DNA of 33,036 nucleotides from Verrucomicrobiaceae bacterium (GTDB lineage: Bacteria; Verrucomicrobiota; Verrucomicrobiia; Verrucomicrobiales; DEV007), in NCBI GenBank assembly GCA_009936795.1, contig JAACDM010000665.1:1-33036 (forward strand), given 5' to 3'. The notes under the pieces are model-generated. The model was not told the origin of the DNA, did no database searches, and was given only the letters and a program-made list of their open reading frames with translations. A program made the translations under genes and the position numbers. The first letter of the stretch is position 1; every line of letters begins with the position of its first letter. Positions 5,688 through 14,120 of this stretch are shown here, piece after piece.

Positions 5688-8393
5688 CTACTTCGATTTG
5701 AAGGCTTCGTTCTGAACCAGCGCGTGTAGGAATTCACTGACGGCGAATTCATTCTCTTCTGCGCTTGCCATGATATGGTTGGCGAGAGGTTCGTCGGTGA
5801 AACCGTAAGGGCGACCGAGGGCGTAGGCGATGAGGTGTTCGGTGAAGCCGCGGGCGAAATCCTCCTCATGCGCAGCGATCAAATTGCGCATCTCGCCATA
5901 GTCTGCGAACTCGGGGCCGTTGTGGAACGCGCCTGAGGCGTCGATTTCCCAGGTCTTCCCTTCTTTCCAGCCTCTTTTGAGCCGTGTTCTATGACTGTTA
6001 GTAGTGCGCCACTTGCCGGCGGCGTCGAAGTTTTCCAGGCCGAAGCCGATGGGATCGATCTTGCGGTGGCAACTGGCGCACTGGGCTTCTTCCATGTGGG
6101 CAGCAAGGCGCTCGCGGGTGGTGAGCGGTTTGTCTGCCAAACGCGATAGTTGTGGGACGTTCGGTGGAGCGGGCGGCGGTGGGTCGTGCAGGAGATGACG
6201 CAGCACCCAGGCTCCGCGCTCGATGGGGCTGCTCTCGACGCCGTCACTGCCCATGGCGTGAATGGCTGCCATGCCCAAGAGGCCGCCGCGTGGGGAGTCG
6301 GCAGGCAGGGGGACTTCGCGAAAGTCATCGCCGGTGACACCTTCGATCCCGTAGTAAGTGGCGAGCAGGCCATTGACGAAGACGGAGTCACTTTTCAGAA
6401 GCTTGCCGAGTCTGCCACTTTCCCTATGGCGAAGCTGGTGGGCGAAGGTTTGGTAGACTTCTTCGCGGGCAGCGCCACGGGTGTTCTCATCGAACTCGCG
6501 ATGGAGGCTCACGTCGAATTGGAAGAAGTCCAATCGCTCCATGTCGAGCCACTGGTGGACGAAGCCGGAGACGAATTCATCGGAGCGTGGGTCGGCGATG
6601 AGGCGATCGACTTGTTGGCGGAGGGTAATCGGTTGGTGCAGTTCGTGGCGTTCTGCGAGATCCAGCAGTTCTTGATCCGGTGGGGCACTCCAGAGGAAGT
6701 AGGAAAGGCGCACGGCCAGCTCACGGTCTGTTAGGGGGCGCGGTGCCGATTCATCACCCGGCTCATTGAAGTAGAGGAATCCGGGTGAGGCGAGAATGAC
6801 GCTGAGGGGTGTTCGAATGGCGACGTCGAAGGACTCTCCAGCGCTGCGGCCGGATTGGTAAAGCGTCAGGATTTGATCGATGAACTTGGGAGCGGGTTCG
6901 ACCCGTCGAAGAGCGGCACGGGCGAAGTCGGCGAGGATAGCGCGGGCGGCTTCGGAAGCGTCGTCGTTGTCCGCGTGCTTGGCGAATAGCTGCTGGAGTA
7001 CGGATGAAGGTCCGGGCGGGGGCAGCGGGCCTTCGAGTTCGATCCAGTCGATCCAGATCGCTGGCGGCGTGCCGTAGCCGTTGGCGCGTTTGTCTCGATT
7101 GTAGGCATCTCGTAGACGCTTGCGATCGGTCGGCTGTCGCTCCTGGATGCCAAACTCCCGTTGGGTGTGGAGGCCGACCTCCACTTGCGTTTCGATGATC
7201 TCTGGGTGTTTGATAGTTCCGGTGACCTGGTGGCTGCTGATGGGGAAACCAGCGAATCCCCCAGGCACCCTGTTCACGCGCTGCGGGTGCCCGATCTCGA
7301 TGAAGTGACGATAGGCCGGTGAGCCGTCTACAGTACCGGCACGCACTCGCATGCGGTAGTTTCCGGGTGGCAGATTATTTGGCTTGGGTGTGACATCGAT
7401 GCGTTGGATCGCCCACGTGAGCTTCAGATAGGTGCCTCGATCACTGTCAGGGAGCTCGGCGTAGTGCTTCATGTAGGCATAGGTCCGACCGTAGCCGCCT
7501 TGATGCGAAAAGGAGGCGGCGTTGGCATCTTTAAAACCGAACTCTTTGGCGTCGGGGCCATTGTTCAGACGGTCAGCATTCTGATAGAGCCGGAGGCGCA
7601 ACCGGTCATCGATCCCAGGAAACTTCTCGCGAAGTTGAGCCATGACCTCCCGATTTTCAGGAGCGAGCGCTGCTTTATCCACCTCGGCTTTCCAAAGAAG
7701 GTAGCGCTCGTTGGTTTCCTCCATTCTCCGCATGTTCTTTTCACTCTGAACATTGACGGTGGTTTCCGGCTCCACGCGAAATACGCGTGCGTCCTCTTTC
7801 AAAGCCGCCTGTCGCTCTAACATTTCATTGATCGCGCTTCGCCCGAGTTTTAGATACTGCTCGAACTGGTCGCTCGAAATGAATTGCGATGCGCCCACGG
7901 TGTCGAAGGTACCAGCTCCGCCATCGTTTGGCAGGGATGCGACAGCGACCCGCACGCCGGTGAGGTGCTCGATGGTGTTCTGGTATTCCCGCCGGTTCAG
8001 CCGACGCATGGTGATCTTGCCACCCGAGTCGGAAAGAACCTTGCGCGCCGCGACCATGGTCTGGGCGAGGGCCTCGAGAAAGTCGGCCTTCGCCGATTTG
8101 TCAGGCTGGCGTTTGTCCTCCGGCGGCATCTCACCGGCGTTCATGGCGTTAAGCACCTTCTGCCAGAGTTCGGCCTGCCGTAGGGGGGTAATTTCAAGCG
8201 GCAGGGCTTCCAAGTTGATCTTGCCCTTCTGCGTTTCCGCGTCGTGGCAGTCGAAGCAATAGTTTTGGAAGAGGGTTAGGTGTTTCTTGGGGAGCTGGGG
8301 GTTGGGTTCGGCGGCAATGGAAAGAGCCGGGGCGCCCGCAATCAGCAGCGCGCCAAGGATCAGACTTATGGTTTTCGTCTTGGACAACATCAT
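5688..8393 (-). CDS. DUF1592-family exported c-type cytochrome-like protein
   Basis: Protein of 901 residues with a signal peptide (ISLILGALLIAGAPALSIAA, cleaved near residue 28). The first heme motif CFDCH is at 46-50 and is followed by the EMPPEDK loop. DUF1587 is represented by RRLNRREYQNTIEHLTG. A beta-rich insert follows and includes a carbohydrate-binding-like stretch (GNYRMRVRAGTVDGSPAYRH). DUF1595/1592 (RELAVRLSYFLWSAPPDQEL), DUF1588 with a second heme motif CASCH at 772-776 followed by RKIDPIGFGLENFD, and a DUF1585 tail complete the usual architecture. It is the last gene of a minus-strand series beginning with a sigma factor at 12126, but a RAYT element separates it from the DUF1552 gene upstream. 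A role in extracytoplasmic electron transfer is inferred from the motifs only. Confidence 0.92.
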   Translation of the reverse strand: MMLSKTKTISLILGALLIAGAPALSIAAEPNPQLPKKHLTLFQNYCFDCHDAETQKGKINLEALPLEITPLRQAELWQKVLNAMNAGEMPPEDKRQPDKSAKADFLEALAQTMVAARKVLSDSGGKITMRRLNRREYQNTIEHLTGVRVAVASLPNDGGAGTFDTVGASQFISSDQFEQYLKLGRSAINEMLERQAALKEDARVFRVEPETTVNVQSEKNMRRMEETNERYLLWKAEVDKAALAPENREVMAQLREKFPGIDDRLRLRLYQNADRLNNGPDAKEFGFKDANAASFSHQGGYGRTYAYMKHYAELPDSDRGTYLKLTWAIQRIDVTPKPNNLPPGNYRMRVRAGTVDGSPAYRHFIEIGHPQRVNRVPGGFAGFPISSHQVTGTIKHPEIIETQVEVGLHTQREFGIQERQPTDRKRLRDAYNRDKRANGYGTPPAIWIDWIELEGPLPPPGPSSVLQQLFAKHADNDDASEAARAILADFARAALRRVEPAPKFIDQILTLYQSGRSAGESFDVAIRTPLSVILASPGFLYFNEPGDESAPRPLTDRELAVRLSYFLWSAPPDQELLDLAERHELHQPITLRQQVDRLIADPRSDEFVSGFVHQWLDMERLDFFQFDVSLHREFDENTRGAAREEVYQTFAHQLRHRESGRLGKLLKSDSVFVNGLLATYYGIEGVTGDDFREVPLPADSPRGGLLGMAAIHAMGSDGVESSPIERGAWVLRHLLHDPPPPAPPNVPQLSRLADKPLTTRERLAAHMEEAQCASCHRKIDPIGFGLENFDAAGKWRTTNSHRTRLKRGWKEGKTWEIDASGAFHNGPEFADYGEMRNLIAAHEEDFARGFTEHLIAYALGRPYGFTDEPLANHIMASAEENEFAVSEFLHALVQNEAFKSK

Positions 8394-8408
8394 ATCGATT
8401 CAATCCTG

Positions 8409-8534
8409 GAGCCCAACGGGCTCAATGCATGCTAGCCCAGGGCAACGCCCTGGGACCGAGGTCGTAAAACAGAATGCAGGCTGAAGGCCTGCGGCATAAA
8501 GGTTTCCAATCGGTTTCATTTCAATCCCAGACGT
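8409..8534. repeat. REP-like array, tandem unit 1
   Basis: Three different palindromes follow each other: GAGCCCAACGGGCTC (8409-8423), CCCAGGGCAACGCCCTGGG (8436-8454) and GCAGGCTGAAGGCCTGC (8476-8492). The unit ends with ATTTCAATCCCAGACGT, a copy of the last codons of the adjacent transposase gene. The whole unit recurs about 132 bases downstream. Confidence 0.85.
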
Positions 8535-8540
8535 TTAACC

Positions 8541-8667
8541 GAGCCCAACGGGCTCAACGCAGACTAGCCCAGGGCAACGCCCTGGGAATAGGGTCACAGA
8601 ACAACGGGCAGGCTGAAGGCCTGCTGCATAGAGGTTTCCAAAGAGGTTTCATTTCAATCCCAGACGT
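8541..8667. repeat. REP-like array, tandem unit 2
   Basis: The same three palindromes appear in the same order at 8541-8555, 8568-8586 and 8608-8624, each shifted by 132 bases from unit 1. The ATTTCAATCCCAGACGT tail here is the genuine 3' end of the transposase gene (stop at 8654-8656), so unit 2 overlaps that gene by a few codons. Confidence 0.85.
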
Positions 8668-9114
8668 ATCGCTCATCGTATTCGATGTTGTACTTTTGCA
8701 GTAGCTTCCGAAACTCATCCTGAAAGCTGACCTTCTTGTGATGTTCTTCCTGGTTGTCGATGTATCGGATGAGTTGATCCAGTTGCGACGGGCTACCGAA
8801 AAATTACCGTACCCGTTTTGCCAATAGAACTCGCTGTATTGAGGTCCCTGCTTCTTGATCCAACTGGACGACTCCTTTTTCACGATCTCGAACAGCTTCG
8901 CGATCGTGACGGTGCGCGGGAGCGTTGCAGCGATGTGAACGTGGTCGGCCACACCGCCAACGCGGTAGGCTTGGGATTGTGGTGGTTCGATATCGCGTAT
9001 GATCTCCGCCATGTAGGCGTGGAGTCGCGGGCGAATGCCCGAATCAATCAACGGTCGGCGATCCTTCGTGCTAAACACCATGTGAAGGATGACTTTGTTG
9101 AGGGATTGAGGCAT
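8654..9114 (-). pseudogene. REP-associated tyrosine transposase (RAYT, Y1_Tnp), one-base frameshift
   Basis: IS200-like HUH transposase with MPQSLNKVILHMVFSTKDRR at the start and the HUH motif DHVHIA (His58, His60). It remains in frame up to FYWQNGYGNFSV. One base is missing near 8800: in the neighbouring frame the gene continues SPSQLDQLIRYIDNQEEHHK, then VSFQDEFRKLLQKYNIEYDE and RYVWD-stop at 8654, a normal length of about 153 residues. The probable nucleophile Tyr of IRYIDNQEEHH lies after the shift, so the unrepaired reading frame would be inactive. It is bounded by palindrome arrays in opposite order, the hallmark of RAYT domestication of REP sequences. The single clean indel could also be an assembly error. 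Confidence 0.88.
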
Positions 9115-9138
9115 TGGTTAGTTAGGTGGGCTTATGAA

Positions 9139-9220
9139 GCAGGCCTTCAGCCTGCATTGGTTTGGCTACGCATCCCCAGGGCGTTGCCCTGGGCTAGGAT
9201 GAGACGAGCCCCTTGGGCTC
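9139..9220. repeat. REP-like array, inverted copy upstream of the RAYT gene
   Basis: The three palindrome types seen at 8409-8624 recur in reverse order and orientation: GCAGGCCTTCAGCCTGC (9139-9155), CCCAGGGCGTTGCCCTGGG (9175-9193) and GAGCCCCTTGGGCTC (9206-9220). The transposase gene is therefore bracketed by inverted arrays, forming an element of roughly 8409-9220. Confidence 0.87.
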
Positions 9221-9285
9221 TGATGTTAGAATCCGCCATTTTTCGAATGCCATTCTTTGCTGCCATTTCTCTGCCTGAATCGTCT

Positions 9286-10578
9286 TCATGCCCGCAATTG
9301 CTTCACCACCCCGGAGCTGTCCCCATGACGTTCGACAGAGATTCCCATGCCGTGAAGCATCGTTAGCCAGACGTTGCATAGTGGCGTGTCATTCGGCAGA
9401 ACGAGATGCTGCCCCAGCTTCAGATTCGCTCCACCGCCGGTGAGAAGGGTCGGGCAATTGTCGAGGTAGTGGATCGAGCTGATGTTAGACCCGAAGGCCA
9501 GTGCGGTATGATCGAACAGGCTCGACCCGTCGGATTCTTTGGTCGCCTTGAGTTTGTCGATCAAGCCGGCCAGCAATTCGCTGTGGGTCTTGTCTCGGGT
9601 CTGGCTCGCCTGCTTGCGCTCACCCTGGGAGTAGTGGCTCACGTTGTGAGCGCTCAACGAAATGCCCATGCTTTGCAGGAGCGCCTGGCCGGGCATGCGG
9701 TAGGTCAGCGCCCGGGTGCTGTCAGTCTGTAGGGCGGCGACGATGAGATCGTACATCACCTTGATTTCTTCCCTTCCTTTCAGGCCTGGTTCGGGTTCTG
9801 CAATGGGCGCTTCGGCCTTGGGAATGTCGAGCCAGGTTTCGTCTTCCCCCAGTCGTGTCTCGATGTCACGGATGCCTTGGAAATACTCGTCCAACTTGTC
9901 GGTGTCGGTCTTGGATAGGCCGCGCTGAACGCGTTTGGCTTCGGTGAGGACAGCGTCTAGCACGCTGCGATTCTCAGCGATGGCAGCCTGACGTTGTTCC
10001 AGAGGCAAATCATCGGCAGAGAACAGTTTATGGAAGACCTGAACCGGATCGTTCTGCCCCGCCACCGGTTTGCCACGCTGATCCCAGGCCAGTGATAGTC
10101 CTGGACCATGTCCCGAGGCGTTGCCATCCGTGCTGTTGAGCTGGATCGAGGTGAAGCGAGTGTCCTGACCAAGTTGCTGGGCGACGACCTGATCGGCGGA
10201 AATGCTATTGGCCATGCTCTGGCCGGGCAGGGCAAAGCGATTCGCCCCGCTGAGCCAGAAGGTGCTGCCCCAGTGGGCTTCGTTGCTGTATTGGTTAGAG
10301 CACCCCTGCACCACCGTGAGATCTGACTGGTGACGCACCAGCGGAACGAGGCCTTCGGGGAGGTTGTAATCCGTACCCGGTTGATGGATGTCAGGAAACC
10401 ACGTTTCTTTCGTCACTCCAAAACCGATGCCCATAAATACAGCGCGTTTTGGCGGTGTGCTAGGTGCCGGGGAAGCGGCCGATACGAAACGGCGAAACCC
10501 GATGGATTCTAGCGCGGGTAGCGCCACGAGCGCTCCCGTTCCGCGGAGGAAGTGGCGGCGGTTGAATAAAGATTTCAT
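9286..10578 (-). CDS. DUF1552 family exported protein
   Basis: Intact protein of 430 residues starting MKSLFNRRHFLRGTGALVAL, a Tat-like signal with Arg7-Arg8. Conserved family landmarks include RAVFMGIGFG, DLTVVQGCSN and SNEAHWGSTFWLSGA near the start, then KLDEYFQGIRDIETRL, YDLIVAALQTDSTRALTYR, HTALAFGSNI and the C-terminal LCNVWLTMLHGMGI. Function is unknown; members are found next to DUF1592 cytochrome-like genes, and here the partner lies 890 bases downstream beyond the RAYT element. The start lies 36 bases after the anti-sigma-like gene, consistent with one transcript from the sigma gene. Confidence 0.9.
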   Translation of the reverse strand: MKSLFNRRHFLRGTGALVALPALESIGFRRFVSAASPAPSTPPKRAVFMGIGFGVTKETWFPDIHQPGTDYNLPEGLVPLVRHQSDLTVVQGCSNQYSNEAHWGSTFWLSGANRFALPGQSMANSISADQVVAQQLGQDTRFTSIQLNSTDGNASGHGPGLSLAWDQRGKPVAGQNDPVQVFHKLFSADDLPLEQRQAAIAENRSVLDAVLTEAKRVQRGLSKTDTDKLDEYFQGIRDIETRLGEDETWLDIPKAEAPIAEPEPGLKGREEIKVMYDLIVAALQTDSTRALTYRMPGQALLQSMGISLSAHNVSHYSQGERKQASQTRDKTHSELLAGLIDKLKATKESDGSSLFDHTALAFGSNISSIHYLDNCPTLLTGGGANLKLGQHLVLPNDTPLCNVWLTMLHGMGISVERHGDSSGVVKQLRA

Positions 10579-10614
10579 GGAAGATGGATGAATGAAGTTC
10601 TAGGGGCAGACGGT

Positions 10615-11595
10615 TCACTTCACGATGCGAACCGGTAGTTTCGGACTGCTAGTCACGGTCAATTCCACATCGTCGGCATAGTAGTTCCCCAGTGCGATTG
10701 GCGTGTTGCTTTCCATGCCCACGCCGGCGCCCAGGGTGATCAGCGCCACCGTGGCTTCGGGTTCCAGCAGGCAGACTGCCGAGATTTCTCCGGATGTTTC
10801 CCCGGGCTCGAGCCGGACCACTTTCTTGCCGGCCGTAATGACATCGGCTAGCACATGGGGCCAGCCCTCGGCGATGATGTCTGGGTCGGCTTCGAACAAG
10901 TAGATGCGAAGAGTCGCCCGGAGTTTCGGAAACGCTTCATCGATTGAGGAGGGCTTCCGCTCAAACGTTGCGGAAAGCTCGAGGGTCTGCCGGGCATTCG
11001 AATCGCTCGCTTGCCACTGGTGACGCAGGGCAGCCAGGTCGATGAATTGAAACGCGTTACAGGCAGAGGCTCCACCTTTGGGAACTCCCTTCACATTGCC
11101 GGTCTCCATAAAGCGCAGTCGCCTGTTGCCATCCGACTCTTCAACCACCTCGACCGGATCCCCGCTCCATTCGCCGAACCGGGAGGAGAAACCCCTCACA
11201 ATGAGGCCTGGTAGGAGGGAGTCAAAGGTGCCGTGGGCGACGTTCAAGGAGGACACTTCTGCCCTCGGCTTGCCAATCGCCCAAGCGGCGCCAATGCCTA
11301 GCAGGCCCACGAACGCTCCGGCTACAATCGCGGCCGCAAGTTGCTGCGGCCAACAAGCAAAGGAGCGGATGGGCTTGTTCTTCTCCATCGATGCCACGCC
11401 AACCTTCGGATCATCCCCGAGGCCGAGCGCGAGCACTTCATCCGCGAGGGCGCCGTGGACCTGGCCGGCCTGAAGGTAGCGTGCACGAATCCCGGCGTCG
11501 GCCACGATTCGTGAAGAGAGTGCCTCGGCCTCTTCGGCATTCGTTTGCCCGTCGAGGTGTTTCTGAATAAGGGAATCCCAGTCCATGGTGTCCAT
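10615..11595 (-). CDS. Membrane anti-sigma-factor-like protein
   Basis: Protein of 326 residues. The N-terminal 60 residues (WDSLIQKHLDGQTNAEEAEA, RARYLQAGQVHGALAD) resemble the cytoplasmic sigma-binding part of FecR-like regulators in this phylum. A single transmembrane segment spans about residues 84-108 (QQLAAAIVAGAFVGLLGIGA). The remaining 220 residues form a beta-rich exported domain without an obvious FecR or LamG signature. Its ATG directly abuts the TAA of the ECF sigma gene, so the two are almost certainly coupled. The likely role is to hold the sigma factor at the membrane until an external cue arrives; this is inferred from position and topology. Confidence 0.72.
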   Translation of the reverse strand: MDTMDWDSLIQKHLDGQTNAEEAEALSSRIVADAGIRARYLQAGQVHGALADEVLALGLGDDPKVGVASMEKNKPIRSFACWPQQLAAAIVAGAFVGLLGIGAAWAIGKPRAEVSSLNVAHGTFDSLLPGLIVRGFSSRFGEWSGDPVEVVEESDGNRRLRFMETGNVKGVPKGGASACNAFQFIDLAALRHQWQASDSNARQTLELSATFERKPSSIDEAFPKLRATLRIYLFEADPDIIAEGWPHVLADVITAGKKVVRLEPGETSGEISAVCLLEPEATVALITLGAGVGMESNTPIALGNYYADDVELTVTSSPKLPVRIVK

Positions 11596-12126
11596 TTAGG
11601 CGAGTTCCTTTCTCATCTGGCTTTCGATGCAGGTTTGGAGGTCGGCCCGAATGCGTTGGATCGCCTTGTAGATCGCTTCGATGGTCCGGCCCTCTTGTTC
11701 GGAGAGCCACTGTGGGCTGCGGCCGTCATGGTAATAGCCCCGAATGAGCCGGCGCTGATTTTCGGGCAGTTTGCCCAGGCAGGTGGTGAGATGCCGCTCG
11801 ATCGCTGCCACGAATCCCGGATCCTGTTCCATTTCCTCCTGGAGCACCTCCATGGCCTTCTCAGTGAGCTGCGCCCGCCGCTGCTGGCGGGCCAGGAAGC
11901 GCCGCGTTTCGATCCGCGCAAACCCCATTGCCCAGTGGAGGAACGGGCGCTCCGGATCGTAGGAATCGAACTGCCGCCAGAGGGCAACCGCCGTTTCCTG
12001 CACGATCTCCCGCGCATCGGCCCGGTTGGGGACAAGAACGAGAGTGGAGCGCAACATCACCGGCTCACTCTCGAGGAGGAGGCGGGTAAAACGCTCGTGA
12101 GCGTCGTTCTGGTCGGTCAGGGACAT
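11596..12126 (-). CDS. ECF sigma factor of the Rhodopirellula/Verrucomicrobium type
   Basis: The protein from Met at 12126 has 176 residues. Region 2 is visible as FTRLLLESEPVMLRSTLVLV, NRADAREIVQETAVALWRQF and PFLHWAMGFARIETRRFLAR. Region 4 has LTTCLGKLPENQRRLIRGYY, then SPQWLSEQEGRTIEAIYKAI and QRIRADLQTCIE. An in-frame ATG at 12201 would add 25 residues without family resemblance, so the shorter form is preferred; neither has a strong ribosome site. It leads a minus-strand series with an anti-sigma-like gene, a DUF1552 gene and, after a RAYT insertion, a DUF1592 gene, which are its likely targets. The upstream DNA carries a divergent sulfatase relic. Confidence 0.87.
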   Translation of the reverse strand: MSLTDQNDAHERFTRLLLESEPVMLRSTLVLVPNRADAREIVQETAVALWRQFDSYDPERPFLHWAMGFARIETRRFLARQQRRAQLTEKAMEVLQEEMEQDPGFVAAIERHLTTCLGKLPENQRRLIRGYYHDGRSPQWLSEQEGRTIEAIYKAIQRIRADLQTCIESQMRKELA

Positions 12127-12224
12127 TGGCGAAACGATCGAATCTACTACAGGTCCACGCCAGGCGAGATTTATGGACAAATAAGTCGGATTTTTGCTCA
12201 TCCCAGCGGTGGTACGGAAGCGCG

Positions 12225-12347
12225 ATGCGTTTGCTTCGGCCTACGGTATCGACAGCATTTGCCGTTGATTACATCCAGAACTCAAACATCGTCATCATCA
12301 GGGCTGATGATCTCGGCTAAAGAGATGGCGGTTGCTATGGAGCCTGA
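12225..12347 (+). pseudogene. Sulfatase 5' relic with in-frame stops
   Basis: From ATG 12225 the frame gives MRLLRPTVSTAFAVDYIQ and then NSNIVIIRADDLG before TAA at 12318-12320. Reading on in the same frame gives RDGGCYGA, then TGA at 12345. Compared with the sulfatase consensus ADDLGYGDVGCYGA, the sequence is ADDLG-stop-RDGGCYGA, so point changes (TAT to TAA, GGA to AGA, GTC to GGC) account for the decay without any indel. Nothing beyond this point is recognisable as sulfatase. It is divergent from the sigma gene and lies within its probable promoter region. Confidence 0.7.
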
Positions 12348-12419
12348 TCAAATGCAGCCAAGCCTTCGAGTGGAGAGTCACGGCTGAGGTGAAGAGCGAA
12401 TGAACTTGGAATAACAATG

Positions 12420-12569
12420 ATGCGAAAAATCACAGATTTGGTCTTGTTCCTGAAGCTTAGCTCTCTGTTAGCGAGTTTGAGTCATGGCCAGGACGAGAGC
12501 CTTGATCCAAAGAAGGCTGATCGCCCAGTCAATGATCGCAGTTCGATCGGCCCAGCCCAACACAACTGA
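12420..12569 (+). other. Small ORF with signal-peptide-like start, possible sulfatase leader relic
   Basis: The 49-residue frame starts MRKITDLVLFLKLSSLLASL and continues SHGQDESLDPKKADRP before losing any recognisable pattern. The first 24 residues look like a Sec leader, and ADRP is the kind of linker that precedes the PNI(V/I) start of mature sulfatases. It sits between a clear sulfatase relic and an intact sulfatase in the same orientation, so it may be another leader remnant. It could also be chance or a small exported peptide. Confidence 0.3.
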
Positions 12570-12611
12570 GTTACAATTCCAGCAAACACAATCCCCTAAC
12601 AAGCACCTACA

Positions 12612-14120
12612 ATGATTCTACGCCTGCTGACATTACTCCTCCTGCCGCACCTGGTCATGGCGGCCGACAAGCCAAACATCATCATCGTCCTGGCTGACGA
12701 CATGGGCATCGGCGACCTGACACCTGGCAATCCCGACTGCAAGATCAAGACCCCACACCTGCAAACGATGGCCGACGAAGGCATCCACTTCTTGGACGCC
12801 CACAGTACCAGCGCCGTCTGCACTCCTACCCGCTACGGTCTGCTCACCGGCCGTTACAATTGGCGTTCCGTCAAAGCTCGCGGCGTCCTCAGCGGTACCA
12901 GCCCTCACCTGATCCCAGCGGATCGGCCAACGATCGCGCACATGTTGCGCAAGGCCGGCTACACCACCCAGATGATCGGTAAGTGGCACCTCGGCTGGGA
13001 CTGGCACAAGGACGGTGAGAAGATCGACTTCACCAAGCCAGTCAACAACGGACCAGACATCAATGGGTTCGACGGCTACTACGGTCACTGCGGCTCCCTC
13101 GACATGCCGCCCTACGTCTGGGTCGATACTGGCAAGTGCACCGCTGTCCCTGACCGCGAGGAAGGCGTCACAAAGAAGCAAGATCCCTACGGTTGGTACC
13201 GCAAAGGTCCCATCAGTCCCGACTTCAAAATCGACGACGTGCTCCCTCACCTTTTCGCCAAGTCGGTGGCGTATATCAACGAGAAAGCTCCCGCTGCCAA
13301 GGAGGGCAAGCCCTTCTTCCTCTATCTGCCGCTGCCCGCGCCGCATACCCCGATCGTTCCGGTGCCTCCCTTCAAGGACGCTAGCGGCATCAATTCCTAC
13401 GCGGACTTTGTCATGCAGTGCGATCATCACATGGGTCAGCTTTTCACCGCGCTGAAGGAGAACAGCATCGACGAGAACACCCTCGTCGTCTTCACCACCG
13501 ACAACGGCTGTTCACCCGAAGGCAACTTCAAGGTCCTCAAAGAGCACAGTCACGATCCCAGCGGCGGCTTCCGTGGCCACAAGGCCGACATCTACGAAGG
13601 CGGTCACCGCGTCCCCTTCATCGTTCGTTGGCCCAAGGGCATCAAGGCCGGCCAGAAGACCAGTGCCATCGCCTGCCACACCGATCTCTATCCTACCATG
13701 GAAGCCATCACTGGTCAGATACGCCAGGATGTCGGCGGCGAAGACGGCTACAACCTCGTCCCAGTCTTCAACGGCGAGTCCACGACCACTGGCCGCAATA
13801 CCCTCATCAGCCACTCGATCAGCGGCCACTTCGCCATCCGTCAAGGCGACTGGAAGCTCTGCCTGTCCGCTGGCAGTGGCGGCTGGAGCGCCCCCCGCGA
13901 AAGAGATGCCCAGAAACGAGGCCTACCATCCATGCAGCTCTTCAACCTCGCCGAGGACAAAGCCGAGCAGAAGAACCTGGTCGAGACGCACCCCGAACGT
14001 GCTCAAGAACTCCTCAAGATCCTGCAGTCGGAAGTCGACAACGGTCGTTGCACCCCCGGGAGCAAGATCCCCAACGACCGCAAGGTCACCTTCCTCCCCA
14101 AGGGCGTGACGATCGAGTGA
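12612..14120 (+). CDS. Type I (formylglycine-dependent) sulfatase, exported
   Basis: Protein of 502 residues with a short signal peptide (MILRLLTLLLLPHLVMA). The mature protein starts ADKPNIIIVLADDMGIGD, with Asp29-Asp30 as metal ligands. The formylglycine motif CTPTRYGLLTGR starts at Cys70, so activation needs a formylglycine-generating enzyme; none is in the window. IGKWHLGW, FTTDNGCSPEG and the C-terminal FNLAEDKAEQKNL region are all present, and the length is normal. It should hydrolyse sulfate esters, probably on a carbohydrate, in the periplasm; the substrate cannot be told. No clear Shine-Dalgarno is visible. It is surrounded by sulfatase relics on both sides. Confidence 0.93.
   Translation: MILRLLTLLLLPHLVMAADKPNIIIVLADDMGIGDLTPGNPDCKIKTPHLQTMADEGIHFLDAHSTSAVCTPTRYGLLTGRYNWRSVKARGVLSGTSPHLIPADRPTIAHMLRKAGYTTQMIGKWHLGWDWHKDGEKIDFTKPVNNGPDINGFDGYYGHCGSLDMPPYVWVDTGKCTAVPDREEGVTKKQDPYGWYRKGPISPDFKIDDVLPHLFAKSVAYINEKAPAAKEGKPFFLYLPLPAPHTPIVPVPPFKDASGINSYADFVMQCDHHMGQLFTALKENSIDENTLVVFTTDNGCSPEGNFKVLKEHSHDPSGGFRGHKADIYEGGHRVPFIVRWPKGIKAGQKTSAIACHTDLYPTMEAITGQIRQDVGGEDGYNLVPVFNGESTTTGRNTLISHSISGHFAIRQGDWKLCLSAGSGGWSAPRERDAQKRGLPSMQLFNLAEDKAEQKNLVETHPERAQELLKILQSEVDNGRCTPGSKIPNDRKVTFLPKGVTIE

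Follow-up and report, generated by a model that had tools for sequence, protein, structure and literature searches.

A probable REPIN/RAYT-like mobile element with inverted triple-hairpin ends, apparently dead, in a Verrucomicrobiaceae bacterium

We analyzed a 33,036-nucleotide stretch of DNA from a Verrucomicrobiaceae bacterium (contig JAACDM010000665.1; hereafter, the window). Positions 8405-9224 probably form a compact mobile element, apparently dead, in which a Y1 HUH transposase gene (tnpA) lies between inverted ends of approximately 95 nt. Each end consists of three palindromes in the order A-B-C, and the element resembles REPIN/RAYT systems, with the triple hairpin as the likely recognition unit. 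This reading draws on the layout of the element, co-variation, dispersal, and one insertion polymorphism, all of which we observed. The features of the window that bear on it, read from the upstream to the downstream side of tnpA, are:

9286..10578, minus strand: flanking gene upstream of the element, encoding a DUF1552 (HXXSHH) protein (PF07586, E=1.6e-72)
9130..9224, minus strand: upstream triple-hairpin unit (end 1), an inverted repeat of the downstream triple, with C at 9139-9155, B at 9175-9193, and A at 9206-9220
8654..9114, minus strand: tnpA, Y1 HUH transposase gene of approximately 150 codons (PF01797), with a one-base frameshift around 8786-8799
8537..8633, plus strand: downstream triple, gene-proximal (end 2), with A at 8541-8555, B at 8568-8586, and C at 8608-8624
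8503..8534, minus strand: duplicated tnpA 3' end beside the second triple (partner 8636-8667; repeat family D2, 88%)
8405..8501, plus strand: second downstream triple, a tandem duplicate of the first (repeat family D1), with A at 8409-8423, B at 8436-8454, and C at 8476-8492
5688..8393, minus strand: flanking gene downstream of the element, encoding a PSD/DUF1592-DUF1588 protein (PF07631, PF07627, and others)

The preliminary description had reported three palindrome types mirrored around an HUH transposase, and inverted-repeat analysis reproduced both their coordinates and their order. Palindrome A is GAGCCCAACGGGCTC, B is CCCAGGGCAACGCCCTGGG, and C is GCAGGCTGAAGGCCTGC. Each set has C nearest the gene, then B, then A; there is one set upstream and two downstream. 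The extra downstream triple is a tandem duplication and not a separate design feature: 101 nt recur at 84% identity with a spacing of 132-133 nt, and the duplicated segment also takes along the last codons of tnpA. Exact B occurs at three places in the 6.6-Mb genome, all at the window gene, and its reversed control at none, which argues that the triple arrangement did not arise by chance. The window element is likewise the sole location of exact C. Beside the DUF1552 and DUF1592-type genes, the surrounding neighborhood (5688-14120) also encodes a sigma-70-type factor at 11596-12201 and, at 12612-14120, a sulfatase.

The same layout recurs in relatives. Of the 96 related genomes, 54 contain genes homologous to tnpA. 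Near 70 homologs, palindromes whose stems reach 7 bp or more were 10- to 18-fold enriched relative to the gene interior (3.7-7.0 per kb within 200 nt versus 0.38 per kb inside). When the upstream flank was compared with inverted downstream flanks, the median score was 67 for the flank of the same locus versus 20 for those of other loci, and the locus's own flank ranked as the best of 69 in 33 loci. Stems vary from locus to locus, and loop motifs recur (CCAACGG in A and CTGAAGG in C). Stems that differ between elements and match at the two ends of one element are expected if one enzyme reads both ends.

We built a covariance model with three helices (R1) from 40 aligned ABC units, in which both-side changes numbered 137 versus 52 in shuffles. 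The window units scored 77.0 bits (end 1; E 9.1e-16, R1 E-values being rough), 77.7 bits (end 2), and 77.2 bits (second downstream triple), scores that are not independent because R1 was itself built partly from these units. In a first set of loci, from relatives in the order Verrucomicrobiales, R1 matched 61 of 69, with units on both sides in 49 and in mirrored arrangement in 40; in a second, made up of contigs gathered by protein similarity alone, in 50 of 70 usable loci the upstream unit was in plus and the downstream unit in minus orientation, with some loci of both sets matching by construction because they also contributed to R1. In the second collection, the median gap between unit and gene was 26 nt at the start codon and 6 nt at the stop codon. 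Judged by record titles, its phyla include Verrucomicrobiota, Planctomycetota, Acidobacteriota, Armatimonadota, Bacteroidota, Sumerlaeota, Hydrogenedentota, and others. At one further locus (L058, G076:C63, 2400-4650), some 15 triple units with alternating orientations form an array on the kilobase scale, which surrounds a single transposase gene and extends downstream of it.

The genome-wide dispersal predicted in the preliminary description is absent from the window's own genome. Searches for dispersed triples with the exact pattern, a two-mismatch pattern, BLAST with the whole 121-nt unit, and the covariance model returned only the element and one decayed copy on contig C11, in an assembly of 739 contigs where repeats may have collapsed. 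R1 detected three full units, all at the frameshifted gene. Beyond these, BLAST returned a 77% fragment on C11, with further rows at chance level. The C11 copy (G000, L011, 1-600) contains a broken transposase gene with 39% identity to the window gene and degenerate C-B-A remnants upstream of it. Given the frameshifted gene, the decayed second copy, and the lack of satellites, the system in this genome looks dead or dying. The DUF1552/DUF1592 gene pair occurs without the element in G012 and G021 (80% and 79% identity for the first gene), which fits an insertion in the window lineage; the intergenic DNA of these two genomes is too diverged to give exact element boundaries. A close ortholog of the flanking DUF1552 gene, sought in the window's own genus for an empty site, was not found.

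Dispersal is evident in related genomes. R1 units, for which the high counts are lower bounds, numbered at least 143 in G095, at least 134 in G018, and at least 102 in G063, followed by 89 in G083, 52 in G096, 51 in G079, and 42 in G001. Whole-genome searches of G059 and G070, both without the gene, returned 0 units. Among other groups, each of the 20 gene-bearing genomes sampled (20/20) contained 2-128 units. Triples in unit-rich genomes are mostly gene-free and often form inverted ABC-CBA doublets of approximately 215 bp, and such REPIN-like doublets are dispersed in G095, G018, and G096. Those of G095 (e.g., 1239810-1240024 and 4535003-4535217) belong to families with up to 99.7% identity at scattered sites, where the shared stretch often exceeds the doublet (383 bp between L259 and L260, for example). 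In G096, the genome of the closest relative, a gene-free A-B-C/C-B-A doublet is present (L195, 1395-1598), as is an array about 1 kb from the gene. The earlier suggestion of the entire ordered triple as the recognition unit finds support in relatives, which show the same order, mirrored ends, and dispersed gene-free triples and doublets; the window's own genome, without dispersal, lends it none.

A comparison of G095 with its sister species G074 revealed one case of an insertion polymorphism that includes a doublet. At L299, approximately 480 bp with the doublet are present in G095 and absent in G074, which reads straight across the site; the flanks are 90-94% identical between the two species. 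The segment at 168-566 of L299 also has 97-98% identical copies at several other places in G074. The polymorphic segment (about 400-480 bp) is larger than the bare doublet and contains outer GTCCCGCATGCGGGAC palindromes. The G074 assembly repeatedly breaks at this repeat of approximately 400 bp (L299, 151-566), in which the outer palindromes surround the ABC-CBA doublet, and contigs C174, C111, C145, C19, and C162 end there. At the gene-bearing locus L025 of G095, the corresponding G074 contigs break within the repeat array. A clean presence/absence difference of approximately 1.2 kb was also seen at L319 (15339-16535 in G095 versus G074:C44:26525/26526); this segment has no listed triple unit and is probably another mobile element.

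These comparisons bear on the possibility that the protein is a Y1 endonuclease that has become resident (domesticated), with flanking hairpins that control its own gene or label sites for some other function, and with units amplified by recombination or slippage and not by transposition. In favor of it are the window's tandem duplication, long local arrays (L058, for example), and the low copy number and low identity among the genes of one genome. However, near-identical copies at scattered sites in G095, and an insertion that is absent in G074 with its flanks intact, argue against it, and we consider this explanation unlikely. With one copy per site and low identity between gene copies, the genes do look less like an active insertion sequence than like a REP-type system that is resident.

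We then turn to the class of the transposase. tnpA runs on the minus strand from 9114 down to the TGA at 8654-8656, and its product matches PF01797 (Y1_Tnp) with E=2e-16 (60.6 bits versus a curated cut-off of 23). The gene is one base short at the frameshift, and the remaining 46 or so codons are stop-free in another frame; the closest relative, L110 (80% identical), reads uninterrupted through this region. The window gene is therefore either freshly broken or affected by a sequencing error. Its product contains DHVH, WQ, and YIDNQEEHH, the last read across the frameshift. Judged by sequence motifs (DH[IV]H, WQ, Y---Q--HH; about 148 aa), the protein fits TnpA-Y1 subclass 1.2, which it also resembles in length (~150 aa) and in low copy number per genome (PMC6006769). 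Y[IVL]--Q--HH is present in about 62 of 70 relatives, mostly of 148-152 aa. The gene had been described as a RAYT, a label that needs correction: the Y---NP motif of RAYT/TnpA-REP proteins (class 2) is missing from the window protein, which has Y---Q--HH in its place, as most relatives do, and the gene is not a classical RAYT. The window's genome contains three more Y1_Tnp genes or gene remnants (L005, L006, and L007), all from other branches.

A classical IS200/IS605 insertion sequence, with the usual subterminal hairpins, would share the PF01797 domain, and the nearest solved structures are IS608 and ISDra2-type TnpA (E about 0.02). Some relatives also exceed the NCBIfam IS200 cut-off (67.4 versus 55 bits). 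In contrast, the window protein and L110 fall below that cut-off (NF033573, subclass 1.1; 44.1 and 46.2 versus 55 bits), and the inverted-triple ends differ from known IS200/IS605 members, which are described as lacking terminal inverted repeats (PMC2817692). Near-identical multi-copy genes were not found in the genome, where the window-type gene is present once, plus one decayed copy. An ordinary IS200/IS605 element is accordingly quite unlikely.

The probable mobile element has closer counterparts among the systems built on RAYT/TnpA-REP proteins, REPs, and REPINs (Nunvar 2010, PMC2817692; Bertels and Rainey 2011, PMC3116915). As in class 2 RAYT systems, the Y1 gene is present in one copy between inverted hairpins, inverted doublets without the gene are dispersed (here in relatives), and the ends co-vary with gene lineage. 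Unlike RAYT/REP systems, which have a single palindrome of 20-40 bp, it has an ordered hairpin triple (~95 nt), and the Y---NP motif is replaced by Y---Q--HH. The foot departs from a strict GT[AG]G in part: B is preceded by [ACG]TAG or CCAG, and some members do have GTAG. TnpA-Y1 subclass 1.2 was reported to lack REP-like structures (Quentin et al. 2018, PMC6006769), whereas most M[PA]QSL-type members examined here have triples. In a quick tree, triples are found throughout the M[PA]QSL type and are missing in L321, in the outgroup L322, and in most MPST/MPNT-type members. L321 is a Bernardetia member in which we looked for a triple and found none; the Persicobacter member L320 has a mirrored triple pair. 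The cyanobacterial plasmid matches L322 and L323 were set aside as a different branch without triples. The sister Y1 branch of the MPST/MPNT type (L082, L084, L086, L088, and L089) is mostly without R1 matches, and the flanks of L082, L084, L086, and L088 contain simpler matched palindromes such as gatgccGAAggcatc.

Two other groups also share parts of this layout. TnpA-Y1 class 3 (Quentin et al. 2018) occurs in Planctomycetes and Acidobacteria, and several atypical hairpins flank its gene and are repeated in the genome, but its own features (Y----Q motif, ~178 aa, CnGA foot) are not matched here. TIRYTs (Di Nocera 2013, PMC3733652) likewise have inverted repeats at the borders of a Y1 gene, and some of these repeats form dispersed families; they differ in that most were assigned to subclass 2.1 and have HTH tails and GGGGWSAS repeats (PMC6006769).

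Part of the triple has been cataloged before. Weinberg et al. (2010, PMC2864571) listed the Acido-Lenti-1 motif (RF01687) from Acidobacteria and Lentisphaerae and considered it probably a non-cis-regulatory RNA, and a 2026 paper (PMC13298647) still treats it as an ncRNA about whose function little is known and which lies near protease genes of Tannerella. Its structure of two hairpins and a 12-nt linker corresponds to the B-A part of the triple. Beside the transposase genes of relatives, RF01687 matches exceed the gathering score of 37 bits (38-48 bits, and up to 56 bits genome-wide), and 25 of 28 best matches, one per genome, overlap a full triple. The window copies gave no RF01687 match at E<=1 and do not reach the gathering score, so they lie outside the curated family, and the identity holds at the level of the wider family. 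Among the 96 genomes, 47 contain both the gene and RF01687, 7 the gene only, 8 RF01687 only, and 34 neither (Fisher p=1.3e-11, Spearman 0.71, in a test that ignores genome kinship). Other Rfam matches, to miRNA families, were dismissed as weak chance matches to long inverted repeats.

The triples could instead be structured RNA elements, for example signals for transcript processing or stability, that lie beside transposase genes by coincidence. RF01687 is curated as an sRNA family, recent papers keep treating it as ncRNA, and the stems covary. However, helices 1 and 2 in alignment A2, a model-fitted alignment of the best RF01687 matches, show 145 both-side changes and only 12 one-side G-U intermediates, a scarcity that favors selection on DNA palindromes over RNA stems. 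We dropped the same argument from alignment A1, whose units had been chosen as perfect palindromes, and used A2 instead. Three further observations count against an RNA: in many phyla the triples sit in mirrored positions around members of one gene family, the stems of an element match from one end to the other, and inverted doublets occur without the gene. We regard this explanation as very improbable. Acido-Lenti-1 would then be the outer hairpin pair (B-A) of the triple, and so a DNA end rather than primarily an RNA: although cataloged as an RNA of unknown function, it is here part of inverted transposase ends.

Intrinsic terminators or unrelated repeats clustered by chance would explain G+C-rich hairpins between genes, but palindromes that are ordered, oriented, mirrored, stem-matched between ends, and enriched near the gene over its interior, together with the genome-wide unit counts, already contradict this explanation, to which we give almost no credence.

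If the probable mobile element works by analogy with known Y1 enzymes, TnpA would bind, cut, and move its ends. A TnpA dimer may recognize the triple folded in single-stranded DNA, perhaps at a replication fork. The anchor would probably be B with its [ACG]TAG or CCAG foot, with A and C as auxiliary hairpins, and cleavage is predicted at the outer edges of the triple. The cargo moved could be either the gene-bearing element or the gene-free doublets, as proposed for RAYT and REPIN.

On balance, and judged against the open-licence literature, we lean toward an unrecognized, phylum-spanning REP/REPIN-type system in which a branch of subclass 1.2 reads a three-hairpin unit and mobilizes ABC-CBA doublets, and which accounts for Acido-Lenti-1 as transposon ends. 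An orphan Rfam "RNA" of 2010 would thereby become a testable DNA-end hypothesis, and annotation pipelines that report RF01687 may be detecting repeats instead of regulatory RNAs. A Y1 subclass reported without REP-like hairpins would gain a predicted cognate DNA substrate. Because this REPIN-like system would have an ordered triple as its unit instead of one hairpin, how Y1 transposases choose among hairpins would become directly testable.
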